The notes beneath the pieces are model-generated. The model ran no database searches, was not told the origin of the DNA, and was given only the letters and a program-made list of their open reading frames with translations. A stretch of 64,000 bases of DNA from Glaciihabitans sp. (GTDB lineage Bacteria > Actinomycetota > Actinomycetes > Actinomycetales > Microbacteriaceae). The stretch is from the NCBI GenBank assembly GCA_025463785.1, contig JAODBD010000005.1, forward strand, positions 334,335-398,334. Reading direction: 5' to 3'. Position 1 is the first letter of the stretch; each line of letters opens with the position of its first letter. The translations under genes were made by a program, and so were the position numbers. Positions 10,098 through 17,804 of this stretch are shown piece after piece.

Positions 10098-10892
10098 CTA
10101 CTGCTCGTGGGCAGTACCGTCGCGGAACTCCGCGAGCAGCGCGAGCACCTGCGCCACCTGCAGCGGGCCCGCAACGCGATGAGCCGCGAGGGTCTCACCG
10201 GTGCCACTTTTGAGACCGAAGTCGTCGGGAGTGAGGGCGGCGAAGGCATCCTCATCCGTCACGTCATCGCCCGCGTAGAAGACGGCATCCGCGTTGGTGT
10301 AGCTGCGGAGGTGCTCGATGGCATCGCCCTTGGTGGTCGAGCGCACCGAGAACTCGAGCACATTCTTACCCTTGCGCACCTTGACGTTATCGACCTCGGC
10401 GGTCGCCTCGCTCAGCGCCACGAGGTGGGCGACACGGGAGTTGTGGTCGGTCGCGAGCCGCGTGTGCAGAGCAAATCCCGCGGGCTTTGGCTCGAGCCAG
10501 ACCTGATCGAACGACTCGGCGACCTCGCCCAGCACCTCGTTGAGAACATCCACCTGGCGCAGCTCACGAGTGTCGAGCGAGACGGCGTCGCCGGGATGAT
10601 CGAGCCGAATCTCGATGCCGTGTGACCCGACCAGCAGGGCGGTATCCGGCAGGTCTGAGACGAGCTCGAGTGAGTGCAGTGATCGCCCGGACACGAGTGC
10701 AACGCGAGTGCCCGGCAGGTCGAGCAGGGACAGAACGGCGGAACGTGCTTCGGGGATGGCGCGCGCCTGCTCGGGGTCATCGACTTCGGGCGCGAGCGTC
10801 CCGTCGAAGTCGAGTGCGACCAGCAGGCGCCGCACGCGAGCGATCTCTCGCAGTGCGCCCACGAGTTCGCGGGATAGCCCGAGTTCGCTCAT
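10098..10892 (-). CDS. otsB: Trehalose-phosphatase
   Basis: HAD motif [29 protein letters not shown]; adjacent to otsA. Confidence 0.93.
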
Positions 10893-10899
10893 CTGGCGC

Positions 10900-12417
10900 T
10901 CATCGGTGACGAATCCGTTCGATGGTCCACTCGAGCTCGCCCAGCGGATCCTCTTCTTCGACTGGCTCCACGGGTTCGCCCGAATTGTCGGCGCCGGCGG
11001 AACGGAGCGCCGCCAGGAATTCGGCAGACCACCGCGCGACGTCATTGCGCAGCACGAGCTTGCGCATCGAGCGCATCCTGCGCTGCCGCTCGACGAGTGG
11101 CATCTCGGTTGCCTGCACAATGGCATCCTTCAGGCCGTCGATGTCGTGCGGGTTAATACGAAGTGACCGGCGCAGTTCGTCGGATGCTCCGGTGAACTCG
11201 CTCAGCACCAGAACGCCGTCGTTGTCGAAGCGGCTGGCCACGTATTCCTTGGCGACGAGGTTCATGCCATCGCGCAGGGCCGTGACCAGCATGACGTCGG
11301 CCGCGAGGTACAGCGCCACCATCTCATCACGCGGGTAGCCGTGGTGGTGGTAGCTGATCGCCTGATGGCTCATGGTGCCAAAATCGCCATTGATACGGCC
11401 GACGGTGAGCTCGATCTCATCCCGAAGCTGCATGTAGGCGGCGACCCGCTCGCGGCTCGGGTTCGCGACCTGCACGAGCGTGACATCCTGAACGTTCAGG
11501 CGACCCTCCTCGAGCAGCTCGCCGAACGCTTTCAGCCGGTGGCCGATGCCCTTCGTGTAGTCGAGGCGGTCGACGCCGAGCATGACGATCTTGGGATTGC
11601 CGAGACCGGCGCGAATCTCCTTCGCCCGCGCCTGGATCTCGGGTTTGCGTGCCAGCTCCTCGAACGCCGACGAGTCGATCGAGATCGGAAATGCCTTCGC
11701 AAGCACGCGCCGCGCCGGCGTCTCGGCCGTTCCCTCGCCCGGAACCTCGATGTACGGATACTTCGTGACGTACCCGAGAAGGCGCCGGGCCGCGCGCGAA
11801 AAATTGGCGGCATCCGCAACCCGCTGGAATCCGATGACGTCGGCGCCGAGCAGCCCATCGATGATCTGAGTGCGCCACGGCAGTTGCGAGTAGATGCCAT
11901 AGGGCGGGAACGGGATGTGATTGAAGAACCCAATGGTGAGGTCGGGCCTCGCGGTACGCAGCATCTTCGGCACCAACTGCAGCTGGTAGTCCTGTACCCA
12001 GACCACCGCGCCCTGCGCAGCAACCGCGATCGCGGCATCCGCAAATCGCTGGTTCACCGCGACGTAGCTTTCCCACCACTCGCGGTGGTAGCTCGGCGGC
12101 GCAATGACGTCGTGATAGAGCGGCCAGAGCGTGTCGTTGGAGAAACCCTCGTAGTAGTTTTCGACGTCATCGGGGCTGAGAGCAACGGGGACGATCCGGA
12201 TGCCGTCGCTCACAAACGGATCAAATTCGAGGTCTGGTTGCCCCGTCCAGCCCACCCACGCGCCGTCCGTCGCCCGCATGACAGGCTCGAGCGCAGTGAC
12301 AAGACCGCCCGGAGAGTGCTGCCAGGATGCGTCACCGTTCGGTGCGATCACTCGGTCCACGGGCAGTCGATTCGATACGACGACGAAGTCGTAGCCACCG
12401 TGCTTCTGAGTAGTCAT
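10900..12417 (-). CDS. otsA: Alpha,alpha-trehalose-phosphate synthase (UDP-forming)
   Basis: 505 aa; VSNRLPVDR, VWVQDYQLQLVPKMLR, GVDRLDYTKGI, LRDGMNLVAKEYVASR. Confidence 0.96.
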   Translation of the reverse strand: MTTQKHGGYDFVVVSNRLPVDRVIAPNGDASWQHSPGGLVTALEPVMRATDGAWVGWTGQPDLEFDPFVSDGIRIVPVALSPDDVENYYEGFSNDTLWPLYHDVIAPPSYHREWWESYVAVNQRFADAAIAVAAQGAVVWVQDYQLQLVPKMLRTARPDLTIGFFNHIPFPPYGIYSQLPWRTQIIDGLLGADVIGFQRVADAANFSRAARRLLGYVTKYPYIEVPGEGTAETPARRVLAKAFPISIDSSAFEELARKPEIQARAKEIRAGLGNPKIVMLGVDRLDYTKGIGHRLKAFGELLEEGRLNVQDVTLVQVANPSRERVAAYMQLRDEIELTVGRINGDFGTMSHQAISYHHHGYPRDEMVALYLAADVMLVTALRDGMNLVAKEYVASRFDNDGVLVLSEFTGASDELRRSLRINPHDIDGLKDAIVQATEMPLVERQRRMRSMRKLVLRNDVARWSAEFLAALRSAGADNSGEPVEPVEEEDPLGELEWTIERIRHR

Positions 12418-12498: not shown

Positions 12499-14241
12499 TC
12501 ACGCCGTGGCGGGCACGAGGCCCAGCGCTCGAGCGCGGCGCACCCGTCGCACGGCGAGCAGTGCGACGAGCAGGCTGCCTACGCCGAAGGCGACGAGCGC
12601 GAGCGCTGCACCAATGGCGTTGGTTGCGATGCCCGAGTTCGCGATGATGGCCTGCATCCCCTGTACGCCATAGGTCAGCGGCAGGAACGGACTCACCACC
12701 TGGAACGGTTTCGCGAGCAACTGGATCGGATAGAGCCCACCGGTGGAGGTGATCTGAACTGCGAGCAGGAAGATCGACACCACAAGACCGGCTCGCCCGA
12801 GTCCGATGGTCAGCAGGTAGTGGAACGCGGTGAACGCGAGCGCCATGATCACCGCGAACAGAACGGTGGCGGGCAGGAGCGTCCAGCTCACGCCCACTGC
12901 GATATGCAGCAGGAGTACGAGCAGCAGGGCCTGGGCCGCCGTGACGATCGAGGCTCGGCCGATCGCGGCGAACACGAGCCGTCCGTTGCCCGCGGTCGAT
13001 GACAGCGTGCGACGGCTGATCGGGCGCATCACGAGGAATACCGCGAGCGATCCGATCCAGAGGCCGAGCGGAATGAACAGGGTCGCGATGATCTGCCCCG
13101 GCGACGACACCTCATTCTTGCGGTCGACGGTGACACCGATCGGATTGGATGCCACATTCGCAGTCTGGGTAATCTGCGCCTTCGTGTACGTCGGCGCGCT
13201 GGCCGCTCCGCTCGAGAGCCCGGTCGCCAACGACTTCGCCCCGGACGAAAGTGACTTCGCCCCTGAGCTCAGTTTTGCGCCTCCGGTCGCGAGCGCCTGC
13301 GTCTTGCTCGCGAACGTGCCCGTGTTGCTGGCGAGCGCGTCGAAAGCAGAGCCGACGCCCGAGGTCACCCTGGAGCCTCCGGCGGCAACTGCGGAGAGCG
13401 TGCCACTGTCAATCTCAACCGCCTGCATGAGCGCGGGATTCGACGGGTCGGCCGCGAGTGCCGCCACATCCGACTTGAGTTTCGCCGAGTACTGGGACAC
13501 CGCCGAGATGTACGGCTTCAGCGCCTGCGACTCCACCTTGGTCTTGGCCGTCTCGGTGCCCGCCTGCAACTGGCGTAGCCCGGACGGCACCTGTGAGGCT
13601 CCGCTGACATAGGAGCTCACTCCCGTCGAGAGGCTGTGCGCGCCGGACGCGATCCTGGATGCGCCATCGGCGGCCTTGGCCAGCGAGCTGCTCACTCCCC
13701 CGATGCCGGAATAGATGCCAGCGATGTACTGCTTCGTGACGGCCTGGCCAAACGCGCCGGCAAGACTGTCGCCCACCACCTGTGCGACCGAGCCGGTCAG
13801 ATAGTTGTGGGAGTCATCCGTCGTGATCGACAGCTTCGCCTGAATGGGCGACTTCGAGGAGAGCGAGACGATCGACTTCGAGAAGTCCCTGGGAACCGTC
13901 AGCACTGCGTACACGGTTCCATCGGCAAGTTGTTTCTTCGCATCGGCGCTGTTCGTGATGGTCCACTTGAAGCCAGCAGAGTTCTTGCCGGTCAGTTCGG
14001 TCACAAGTTGACGTCCCGCAAGCACCGGACTTTTGGTGCCGTCGGCGGCTGTCTGGGTGACCAGCTGGTCATTGTTGACGATGGCGGCCGGGATGTTGTT
14101 GATGCCGTGGCTCAGTTGCGAAACGGCTCCAATGAAGAGTCCCGCGAACGCGAGTGGCACGAGCACGACGGCCCCGAGTGCTGCCCAGCGCAGCCAGGGA
14201 CGGCGTAGCCAGCCACGGCGGGATGAAGTGTTTTGGCTCAC
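12499..14241 (-). CDS. YhgE/Pip-type membrane protein (ABC-2-like permease fold)
   Basis: 580 aa; N-terminal TM, long extracellular region with SGAKSLSSGAKSLATGLSSGA repeats, C-terminal TM block; start overlaps upstream gene stop by 4 bp. Confidence 0.8.
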   Translation of the reverse strand: MSQNTSSRRGWLRRPWLRWAALGAVVLVPLAFAGLFIGAVSQLSHGINNIPAAIVNNDQLVTQTAADGTKSPVLAGRQLVTELTGKNSAGFKWTITNSADAKKQLADGTVYAVLTVPRDFSKSIVSLSSKSPIQAKLSITTDDSHNYLTGSVAQVVGDSLAGAFGQAVTKQYIAGIYSGIGGVSSSLAKAADGASRIASGAHSLSTGVSSYVSGASQVPSGLRQLQAGTETAKTKVESQALKPYISAVSQYSAKLKSDVAALAADPSNPALMQAVEIDSGTLSAVAAGGSRVTSGVGSAFDALASNTGTFASKTQALATGGAKLSSGAKSLSSGAKSLATGLSSGAASAPTYTKAQITQTANVASNPIGVTVDRKNEVSSPGQIIATLFIPLGLWIGSLAVFLVMRPISRRTLSSTAGNGRLVFAAIGRASIVTAAQALLLVLLLHIAVGVSWTLLPATVLFAVIMALAFTAFHYLLTIGLGRAGLVVSIFLLAVQITSTGGLYPIQLLAKPFQVVSPFLPLTYGVQGMQAIIANSGIATNAIGAALALVAFGVGSLLVALLAVRRVRRARALGLVPATA

Positions 14242-17165
14242 GAGAGTGTGCCCTCTCTGTTCTGGTTGCCGGCAGCGTTTGCCACTGCGAGCGAATCAAG
14301 ATCGATAGTGATGACTCGACGCGCTACCGTTGCCGCGTCGAAGTCGCGGGGCGCCATGGCGGTTCCCAGCACGATGGTGGTGGTCGCGGGCGCGAGCTGA
14401 TCGAGAGCGCAGAGGAACCGGGCTTCCTCACGCGGGTCGGCGAAGGCATCCATGAGGTCGAGCATCACGACGGGCGTGTGCTCGGCCAGCGCGACCGCGG
14501 ACAAGGCCACGGCTCGCGGGAGTTGGTGCAACTGGTCAACGGTCGAGGTGCCCGCCACGACGTCCGCGCCGAGCACCGAGTTGATGCGCGCGAGCCAGGT
14601 GCGGGCGCGGCGATTGACCGTGAACGTCCGGTACCAAGGCTGGGTCATGCTCAGCCGTTCGACGAGTAGTTCACCGACGCCGACGCGAACCTCGGCGCGA
14701 TCGGATCCGCCGATGTCTTCGAGGGCCACCATTCGAGCGACCTGCGCGCTCTCGGACGGCAGCGGATGCCCGCCAACCTGGGCTCGCCCGCTCACCGGAT
14801 CGAGGCGGCCGGCCAGCGTCGCCGCCAGCAGCTTGCGGTCGGTGCCGCTCCCGCTCGCGATCACGATCGTGCCGGGCGGAACATGCAGGCTCACCGGACC
14901 AACCCGATGCAACCCGGAACCCGCGATCAGCTCGTCGGCCGTGATGACGTCGCCTTCGCACTGTCCGGCAGCCCAGCCGACCGCGGTGCGGTGGGCCCGC
15001 AGGCGCTCCCCCTCGATATCAACGTTCGGGAGAATGCGCGACAGCCACTTCGGCATCCACCAGGCGGCGCGGCCGAAGAGCGCCATCGCGGCAGGAACGA
15101 GCGTCATTCGCACGAGGAACGCGTCGGCCAGGATGCCAACGGCGAGACCCAGCGCGATCGCCTTGATCACGCCGGTGCCCTCGGGAACGAACGAGGCGAA
15201 CACGAAGAACATGATGAGCGCAGCCGCCGTGACGACGCGGGCGGCTCCGGAGAAACCGCGCACGATGGCCTTCTTCGCGTCACCCGTGTGGACGTAGGTT
15301 TCGCGCATCCCGGAGACCAGAAAGACCTCATAGTCCATGGCAAGACCGAACAGGACGGCCATGAGGAGAATCGGCAGGAAGCTCAGAATCGGCCCCGGGA
15401 TGACGCCAAGGGCGTCCGAGAGCCAGCCCCACTGGAAGATGGCGACCACAACCCCGAACGACGAGAGTACAGACAGCAGGAACCCGACCGCGGCCTTCAC
15501 GGGGATCAGCACCGAGCGGAAAACCATCATCAGGAGCAGGATCGAGAGGCCAACCACGATGAGTCCGAACGGCACGAGGGCGCTGTTGAGCCTCGATGAA
15601 ATGTCGATCTGAACTGCGGTTGCCCCGGTCACCTCGATGGGCGTCTGGTATTTCGCTTCGATGGTCGTCGACAACGCCCTGATGCGGTTGACGAGGGCAG
15701 TCGTGGTCGGGGAATCGGGCGCACTCTTCGGGATCACCTGAAGCACGGCGGTATCGAGCGAGGCGTTGGGCAGCCCCTGGCTCACATAGCTGACATCCGC
15801 GAGCTTCGACAGGTCGCTGCGGATCGAGGTCAGGTCGGCCGAGATCGCGTTGGTCTGGGTGATGTCGACGAGCACGATCAGCGGCCCGTTTCGACCCGCA
15901 CCGAACCCCTGCGTAATCATGTCGTATGAGGTGCGCGTGGTCGATCCGACGGGCTGGCTCGACCCGGACGGCAGCGCGAGCTCGAGCGAGAACGCGGGGA
16001 TCGCGAGCACTCCGAGCACAGCGACGACCGCAACCACGGCGACCACTGGGGCTTTCATGACGAGCGTCACCCAGCGCTGGCCGAGGCTACGCCTGGCCGT
16101 TGGAGCGCCATCGACCGCGTCGACCGCACGCCGATGCGCCCGCGAACCCGGCTTCGGGATGAGCCTGCCCTTCGCGAGACCCAGAATCGCCGGCAGCAGC
16201 GTTGTCGACGCGAGAATGGCCACCAACACACCCGCGGCCGCGGCGACTCCCATCGCGCTGAGGAACGGGATGCCGACAACCAGCAGCCCGAGAAGCGCGA
16301 TGATGACCGTGCCGCCCGCGAAGACGACAGCACTGCCCGCGGTCGCGACGGCCGTTGCCGCCGACTCTTCGGGCGTCATCCCGTTGGCCAATTGGTTTCG
16401 ATGCCGCGACAGGATGAACAAGCCGTAGTCGATGCCGACGGCAAGCCCGATCATCAGCGCCAACAGCGGCGTTGAGCTTCCGATGACGGTGAACTTTGCG
16501 GCCGCGAGCACGCCACCCATGGTGACGCCGATCCCGAATATGGCCGTGAGGAGTGGCATCCCGGCGGCGAGCAGCGAGCCGAATGCGATGAACAGGACGA
16601 TTCCCGCGAAGAGAACCCCGATGCCCTCGGTTGCCGAGATACCGAACGTCTGCTTCTGAAAGACGTTACCGCCGAAGCCGATCGTGAGCCCGGCCTTTGT
16701 CGCGATGGGCGAGAGCTTCGTGAGATCGGTGAGGGTGCTGGCTTTGACGTCGGATTCCTGCTGGGTGAACTGCACGGCGACGATCGCCGCCGTCTTGTTC
16801 GGTGACACGGCATCTGATGCGTACTTGCCGAACGGCGAGCTGGCGCTGTCGACCCCGGGGATGGCGCCCGCCTTCGTCACAAGCTCGTCGATTGCATCGC
16901 GGTACGGCTGGTTCGTGACCGAGGCGCCATCCGGTACCTGGACCACGATCTGTGCGCTGGCTCCCGCGGCCGACGGGAAGACCGCGGCGAGACGGTCGAT
17001 CGCGTTCTGCGACTCGGTGCCCGGAATGGCGAAGGAGTCGTTGGTCTTGCCGCCGAGAGCGAGGCCGCCACCCAGCATCCCGATCACGATGATCAGCCAG
17101 ACGGCGAGCAACCGCCACGGGTGACGAAACGAGAACCGGCCGAGCCGGTAGAGCAGAGTTGCCAT
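14238..17165 (-). CDS. MMPL/RND-family transporter with C-terminal degenerate ABC-type nucleotide-binding domain
   Basis: 975 aa; N-terminal MMPL (GIDYGLFILSRHRNQL, GLAMDYEVFLVSGMRE); C-terminal ~250 aa GPVSLHVPPGTIVIASGSGTDRKLLAATLAGRLDPVSGRAQVGG...VVMLDLMDAF. Confidence 0.88.
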   Translation of the reverse strand: MATLLYRLGRFSFRHPWRLLAVWLIIVIGMLGGGLALGGKTNDSFAIPGTESQNAIDRLAAVFPSAAGASAQIVVQVPDGASVTNQPYRDAIDELVTKAGAIPGVDSASSPFGKYASDAVSPNKTAAIVAVQFTQQESDVKASTLTDLTKLSPIATKAGLTIGFGGNVFQKQTFGISATEGIGVLFAGIVLFIAFGSLLAAGMPLLTAIFGIGVTMGGVLAAAKFTVIGSSTPLLALMIGLAVGIDYGLFILSRHRNQLANGMTPEESAATAVATAGSAVVFAGGTVIIALLGLLVVGIPFLSAMGVAAAAGVLVAILASTTLLPAILGLAKGRLIPKPGSRAHRRAVDAVDGAPTARRSLGQRWVTLVMKAPVVAVVAVVAVLGVLAIPAFSLELALPSGSSQPVGSTTRTSYDMITQGFGAGRNGPLIVLVDITQTNAISADLTSIRSDLSKLADVSYVSQGLPNASLDTAVLQVIPKSAPDSPTTTALVNRIRALSTTIEAKYQTPIEVTGATAVQIDISSRLNSALVPFGLIVVGLSILLLMMVFRSVLIPVKAAVGFLLSVLSSFGVVVAIFQWGWLSDALGVIPGPILSFLPILLMAVLFGLAMDYEVFLVSGMRETYVHTGDAKKAIVRGFSGAARVVTAAALIMFFVFASFVPEGTGVIKAIALGLAVGILADAFLVRMTLVPAAMALFGRAAWWMPKWLSRILPNVDIEGERLRAHRTAVGWAAGQCEGDVITADELIAGSGLHRVGPVSLHVPPGTIVIASGSGTDRKLLAATLAGRLDPVSGRAQVGGHPLPSESAQVARMVALEDIGGSDRAEVRVGVGELLVERLSMTQPWYRTFTVNRRARTWLARINSVLGADVVAGTSTVDQLHQLPRAVALSAVALAEHTPVVMLDLMDAFADPREEARFLCALDQLAPATTTIVLGTAMAPRDFDAATVARRVITIDLDSLAVANAAGNQNREGTLS

Positions 17166-17202: not shown

Positions 17203-17790
17203 TTAGGTAGTTGCCTGCGCAGAACGCAGTGAGACCGGCTCGAGCAGCTCGGTGACGATGGTGATCAGGGCAGTCCGTACCTCGATCTGGGCGGCCTCCC
17301 CGAATTGCTGGTCGCGGAGGGCGTCATCCTGTTTCGCAGAGAGCACATATGCCGCACCGCCGAGAGCGATCCCGAAGCGGAGGTGGTCTTCGACCGTGCC
17401 GACCGAGGAGGAGAAGAACGTTGCGAGCTTGACGACCATGGCGTTCGCGCGGTCGATCACCGGAACATCCTCAAGCCCCGGGCCCTGGTTGATGAACATG
17501 TGCACTTCGAGGCGGTGCGCGAGCAGGAAGTCGACGAACTGGACGATGAAGGCGTGCCGGTCATCCCTATCGGTCAGGGAGCCGCCGAGGGAGTCAAGGA
17601 TGGCGTCCATGCGATCGATTGCGGGGCCGATAGCCGCCTGGAGCAGCGCCTCTTTGGAGTCGTAATGGTAGAGCACGCTGGACTTGGAGAGGCCAGCGAT
17701 TTCGGCGATGCGCTGAAGTGAAGTGCCTGCGTATCCGGCAACGGCAAATTCGGCGAGCGCAATGTCGCGGAGGTCGTCATGGGTTGACAT
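17203..17790 (-). CDS. TetR family transcriptional regulator
   Basis: MSTHDDLRDIALAEFAVAGYAGTSLQRIAEIAGLSKSSVLYHYDSKEALL HTH; a GTG start at 17799 is an alternative. Confidence 0.9.
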   Translation of the reverse strand: MSTHDDLRDIALAEFAVAGYAGTSLQRIAEIAGLSKSSVLYHYDSKEALLQAAIGPAIDRMDAILDSLGGSLTDRDDRHAFIVQFVDFLLAHRLEVHMFINQGPGLEDVPVIDRANAMVVKLATFFSSSVGTVEDHLRFGIALGGAAYVLSAKQDDALRDQQFGEAAQIEVRTALITIVTELLEPVSLRSAQATT

Positions 17791-17804
17791 GTAGTCCACG
17801 GTAA

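Follow-up and report, generated by a model that had tools for sequence, protein, structure and literature searches.

An MMPL permease fused to a pseudo-ABC nucleotide-binding domain and encoded next to a YhgE protein in Glaciihabitans sp. and related actinobacteria

Gene organization of the locus

The window, a stretch of 64,000 nucleotides from Glaciihabitans sp. (contig JAODBD010000005.1, positions 334,335 to 398,334), contains a minus-strand cluster in which a TetR regulator gene is followed by a gene for an MMPL/RND permease with a long C-terminal extension and by a gene of the YhgE/Pip family (Table 1). Open reading frame analysis of the fusion gene gave an ATG start and a product of 975 aa. 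The product of the downstream gene scored above the cut-offs of both YhgE profiles, TIGR03062 (E 3.2e-47, 160.8 bits against 102.2) and TIGR03061 (E 1.9e-39, 134.9 bits against 96.15), and also matched ABC2_membrane_3 (E 2.5e-21); no sequence relative of YhgE with a solved structure was found. The overlap between the two genes, pointed out in a previous sequence-only reading of this DNA, was confirmed as four bases (GTGA), and the same kind of junction, ATGA or GTGA, was present in 55 of 59 relatives.

On the same strand, yhgE is followed by two genes that we take to be otsA and otsB (10098-12417, trehalose synthesis). Among the fused loci of the same family, otsA was found after YhgE on the same strand in 27 of 52, with otsB also present in 25 of these; it was downstream in 0 of 20 fused loci outside this lineage. 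The membership of otsA in the system is uncertain, and because of this distribution a trehalose lipid as the substrate is only a suggestion. The promoter and terminator scan gave no signal above chance.

Table 1. Coordinates of the features of the cluster within the window.
Feature	Position	Strand	Evidence or remark
TetR regulator, first gene of the cluster	17203..17799	-	TetR_N, E 2.7e-11; position kept in nearly all same-family loci
MMPL::pseudo-NBD fusion gene, 975 aa	14238..17165	-	Open reading frame; architecture recurs in about 150 same-family loci
MMPL/RND permease domain, residues 1-719	15009..17165	-	PF03176; MmpL3 best PDB match by sequence and fold
Asp246-Tyr247, proton-relay pair 1	16425..16430	-	Aligned with MmpL3 motif IDYGLFI
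Asp611-Tyr612, proton-relay pair 2	15330..15335	-	Aligned with MmpL3 motif DYEVFLVS
Pseudo-ABC nucleotide-binding domain, residues 720-975, 256 aa	14241..15008	-	AlphaFold2; Foldseek; profile-profile 99.9% to separate YhgE-linked NBDs
Former Walker A, residues 771-778, SGSGTDRK	14832..14855	-	Arg777 at the Lys position
ABC signature position, LHQLP	14517..14531	-	Family consensus LPQLE
Walker B remnant VVMLDL, residues 899-904	14454..14471	-	Asp903 kept; catalytic Glu replaced by Leu904
Stop/start overlap GTGA, fusion gene and yhgE, 4 bases	14238..14241	-	ATGA/GTGA in 55/59 relatives
YhgE/Pip protein, ABC-2-type permease, 580 aa	12499..14241	-	TIGR03062, TIGR03061, ABC2_membrane_3
otsA (trehalose-6-phosphate synthase), 81 bp after yhgE	10900..12417	-	Name presumed
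otsB, next after otsA	about 10098-10892	-	Name presumed

The MMPL permease part

In the fusion protein, PF03176 was matched in two stretches corresponding to two repeats (E 4.7e-79, 266 bits against a cut-off of 20.5). The best PDB match of this part was MmpL3, both by sequence (7nvh, E 1.4e-54) and by fold (6ajf). The proton relay of MmpL3 consists of D256/Y257/D645/Y646 (PMC11524445), and an alignment revealed that the pairs D246-Y247 and D611-Y612 of the fusion protein are invariant across 40 fused proteins. The MMPL part is an MmpL3-like pump with intact proton-relay residues, for which proton drive is predicted.

Fold of the C-terminal domain

No Pfam family, including PF00005 (ABC_tran), matched residues 720-975, and PF00005 was detected at E<=0.01 in only 1 of 62 relatives of the fused domain. 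Single-sequence matches to ABC nucleotide-binding domains (NBDs) were weak, namely NCBIfam cbiO (0.0013), CydD (0.0016) and PDB 6p6i (1.3e-4). An AlphaFold2 model of the domain, built with 42 homologues, reached a pLDDT of 92.3 and a pTM of 0.89, and a Foldseek search with this model returned ABC NBDs as all of the top 50 PDB matches (best E 5.9e-12, probability 1.00). The degenerate ABC NBD that had been claimed from the sequence was thus recovered as a predicted fold, and it was further borne out by profile homology and by the separate NBD-YhgE gene pairs described below, so that the NBD identity and YhgE-linked origin of the domain are well supported. Chance resemblance to an NBD was ruled out by the fold and profile comparisons. 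The last transmembrane helix of the full-length model ends at about residue 702. A short helix (706-711) comes next and leads into the NBD-like domain, the placement of which relative to the MMPL part is unreliable because this model has a pLDDT of 78 and a pTM of 0.65.

Conservation and loss at the nucleotide site

Motifs were counted in 90 fused domains, the window's own among them. The proposed loss of the Walker A Lys, the LSGGQ signature and the catalytic Glu proved correct, with Arg777, LHQLP and Leu904 at the respective positions. The Walker A Lys position was occupied by Arg in 88 of the 90 domains and by Lys in none. The inner glycines of the P-loop are gone in most of the group, and the loop is shorter by one residue than that of the separate homologues. 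In the AlphaFold2 model a helix begins at residue 774, inside the former Walker A loop. Neither the fused domains nor the separate homologues linked to YhgE contain LSGGQ. At Walker B, Asp903 was kept in 78 of 90 fused domains, and position 904, that of the catalytic Glu, was mostly Leu, Gln or Ala.

Other positions are nearly fixed: G765 and G793 in 90/90 and P803 in 87/90, comparable to Arg777. Together with R837, W731 and R949, which are also kept, these residues indicate that the domain is not drifting freely. Conservation was also observed around the former Q-loop and the next helix (GHPLPSE...VAL.D...ELL.ERL.LTQPWYR); this conservation is partly common to the separate NBDs, which is not the case for the P-loop. 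In ABC transporters, the Q-loop and the helix that follows it form the part of the NBD that contacts the permease.

The near-invariance of Arg777 and the retention of the Walker B Asp are features that a regulatory sensor could have, one in which the domain would gate the MMPL pump by binding either nucleotide, despite the missing Lys, or some other ligand; Arg also occupies the Lys position in 69% of the separate NBDs, where it stands within a retained GSGRT. However, the shortened P-loop without its inner glycines, the helix starting inside the former loop and the missing signature motif all speak against binding of this kind, and we regard a sensor as quite unlikely.

Distribution of the fusion and its link to YhgE

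Across 400 same-family genomes, about 150 homologous loci with the fusion in the same frame were listed, nearly all encoding proteins of ~960-1250 aa. The fusion is also present in 46 named public records, including those of Galbitalea soli, Salinibacterium, Cryobacterium, Lacisediminihabitans and Herbiconiux, and these names put the window in or near Microbacteriaceae. A fusion created by sequencing error was ruled out by this recurrence, which extends from Microbacteriaceae to other families of the class. The order TetR, MMPL::NBD and YhgE on a single strand was observed in the same-family loci read at length. Wherever enough sequence was available, YhgE lies directly downstream of the fusion, in 80 of 80 loci from the family and beyond it, and it was absent from the ~1.4 kb seen downstream of closely related unfused MMPL genes in other families (21 of 21). 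Additionally, a metagenome-assembled genome labelled as an Acidobacteria bacterium (L222, JABBOD010000011.1) carries a TetR-fusion-YhgE-otsAB cluster of the Microbacteriaceae type; a wrong label or contamination is probable.

Separate NBDs, intact fusions and the history of the domain

When the order was searched with the domain profile, NBDs encoded by genes of their own were found immediately upstream of YhgE, both in other families and in two same-family genomes (L154, L161), and the pair was also found in families f21 and f22. The P-loop of these separate NBDs reads GSGKT or GSGRT, and their Walker B mostly has Asp-Asp; those tested scored above the PF00005 cut-off, and they are without LSGGQ and without the catalytic Glu. 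YhgE was therefore perhaps never driven by canonical ATP hydrolysis. The survey thus located the separate-NBD loci that the sequence-only reading had anticipated: the separate NBD adjoins YhgE, normally without an MMPL gene. It also yielded fusions with an intact P-loop, since families f24 and f105 encode an MMPL-NBD fusion with a GKT P-loop (GPSGSGKTALLL, GPPGTGKTALLL) followed by YhgE. Furthermore, shorter fused forms were observed in which the domain comprises only ~190-215 aa and the helical subdomain is absent. The proposed link of the domain to YhgE is supported by these gene pairs, as it is by the fold and the profile homology.

Several loci deserve separate mention. Arg replaces the Walker A Lys in 69% of 43 separate YhgE-adjacent NBDs, and the whole group has non-canonical sites (L147-L153, L155, L157, L161, L164-L166, L168, L177, L228-L236, L241, L242). 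Short remnants were observed at the fused MMPL loci L169, L170, L172-L174, L176, L239, L240 and L251-L255, of which L252 retains GPPHSGKTALLL. A fused system and a separate NBD-YhgE pair occur in one genome in two cases, L161/L136 (G281) and L252/L256 (G1326), so the two systems coexist. In the window's own genome, outside the window, a second and weak YhgE/ABC-2-like permease match was found (G000:C15:247414-248792, L040), immediately preceded by an ordinary NBD of 244 aa.

Profile comparison by hhalign related the domain to the separate YhgE NBDs with an E of 5e-31, against 2.5e-8 for 29 general NBDs from the window's own genome. With 6 candidates scored, this genome gave no further match to the domain at E<=1e-3. 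An origin from an unrelated NBD of the same genome is unsupported by this contrast and by the lack of a further match.

In the MMPL tree, all fused proteins form one clade (SH-aLRT 99), and a fusion occurring independently in each family is unneeded. In the NBD tree, the separate domains are divided from the fused ones (98/95), and this division appears again in the YhgE tree (99), where the subgroups are also nearly the same. The direction of the history rests on the MMPL tree and the intact forms, since the NBD and YhgE trees are unrooted. These comparisons, made at the level of sequence, trace the domain to a dedicated ABC-type NBD of YhgE; the MMPL tree supports its having joined an MmpL3-like pump once, and the motif series places the loss of the nucleotide site in the window's lineage after the fusion. 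The simplest history begins with one fusion that still had its P-loop, after which at least two lines lost the site.

An ATP-driven exporter could in principle have survived these changes. The fused domain would then be one half of an asymmetric pair, with a canonical ATPase supplied from elsewhere, and YhgE would remain an ABC exporter. ABC exporter heterodimers with one degenerate site exist, such as TmrAB, and the own genome offers 92 PF00005 matches as potential partners. However, no intact NBD is present in the window's gene cluster, 45 of 59 same-family loci have no canonical NBD closer than 6 kb, none of the candidates scored in the own genome matched the domain, and the dimer-facing signature is lost across the whole YhgE-NBD group. 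Such a pair appears highly improbable.

Selection on the domain

In simple Nei-Gojobori estimates, some with high dS and two of the pairs being one genome pair entered twice, the dN/dS of the Lys-less domain was 0.05-0.72 and fell below 0.5 in almost every pair. These values are about double those of the MMPL part, and in the intact-P-loop lineage 3 of 4 pairs had similar values in the NBD and MMPL parts. Since dN/dS is below 1 yet about twice as high as in the MMPL part, purifying selection still acts on the domain, but in relaxed form. The domain had been suggested to be vestigial or regulatory, and a purely vestigial nature is made less likely by this purifying selection.

A vestige would be a decaying passenger left by the fusion and tolerated, with MMPL and YhgE acting separately. 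The higher dN/dS of the domain is compatible with such decay, as is the series leading from fusions with an intact P-loop through Lys-less long forms to short forms without the helical subdomain. We nevertheless consider a mere vestige unlikely: dN/dS lies well below 1, the full fold is retained along with the near-fixed residues G765, G793, Arg777 and P803, and a plain MMPL beside YhgE was not seen among the loci read.

Proposed mechanism

Our best reading, with a probability of roughly 0.55, is that the domain is a pseudo-ATPase adaptor that would dock a proton-driven MMPL pump onto the ABC-2-type YhgE. The domain may bind the cytosolic face of YhgE as an NBD does, serving as a fixed adaptor and not as an ATP-driven motor, so that MMPL and YhgE would constitute one export unit through the docked domain. 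We infer this role because the domain was the NBD of YhgE, the trees are congruent and the genes overlap, and because the former Q-loop and helix region is conserved while the nucleotide site is lost. Proton flux through the MMPL relay could drive the cycle, as this relay is the sole intact motor in the unit. YhgE has a large extracytoplasmic domain and would receive or guide the substrate, probably a lipid or amphiphile, and TetR would control expression of the cluster. The fused arrangement is kept beside YhgE in many actinobacteria, suggesting that the dead ATPase still joins both transporters. The roughly twofold relaxation of selection on the Lys-less domain relative to the MMPL part counts against an adaptor, and together with the short fused forms lacking the helical subdomain it fits continuing decay.

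More tentatively, the system might represent a hybrid of two superfamilies, in which a proton-driven RND pump acquired the NBD of an ABC-2-type permease and now uses it to power or gate the permease, the proton gradient replacing ATP hydrolysis. The living intermediates of such a transition would be the separate NBD, the fusion with an intact P-loop, the fusion without a P-loop, and the fused and truncated forms.

Comparison with known systems

RND pumps and ABC transporters are normally viewed as separate, differently powered machines, and one protein here has parts of both. The open-access literature searched contained no description of an MMPL-NBD fusion or an MMPL-YhgE operon. Each part is of a known kind; what appears to be undescribed so far is the way they are combined, together with the graded loss of the ATPase. 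The graded relatives make a change of energy source testable.

The closest known relatives of the pump are MmpL3, the exporter of trehalose monomycolate, and other MmpL/MMPL proteins, with which it shares the permease fold, the two-repeat MMPL domain and the Asp-Tyr proton relay. The fusion protein scores 210.9 bits against the MmpL3 equivalog, far under its cut-off of 1400 bits, and it carries a folded pseudo-NBD, whereas the MmpL structures found are without an ABC-like domain.

The downstream protein is comparable to the YhgE/Pip family, including the phage infection protein of L. lactis, PIP of E. faecalis and EsaA of S. aureus, whose relation to PIP has been described (PMC4999554). It scores above both family cut-offs and likewise contains an ABC-2 membrane domain. 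In this locus it is tied to an MMPL pump through a former NBD, a link not found in the open-access papers searched, and YhgE/Pip proteins thereby gain an ABC-type NBD partner and a defined transporter context.

In the NBD-YhgE pairs of other actinobacteria, which are ABC-2 exporters with a separate NBD, a homologous NBD adjoins a homologous YhgE; in contrast, the NBD here is fused to MMPL and is without the nucleotide-site residues. TmrAB-type ABC proteins resemble the fused domain in combining an ABC fold with altered site residues. In TmrAB one of the two sites stays canonical, whereas almost nothing canonical is left in the fused domain.
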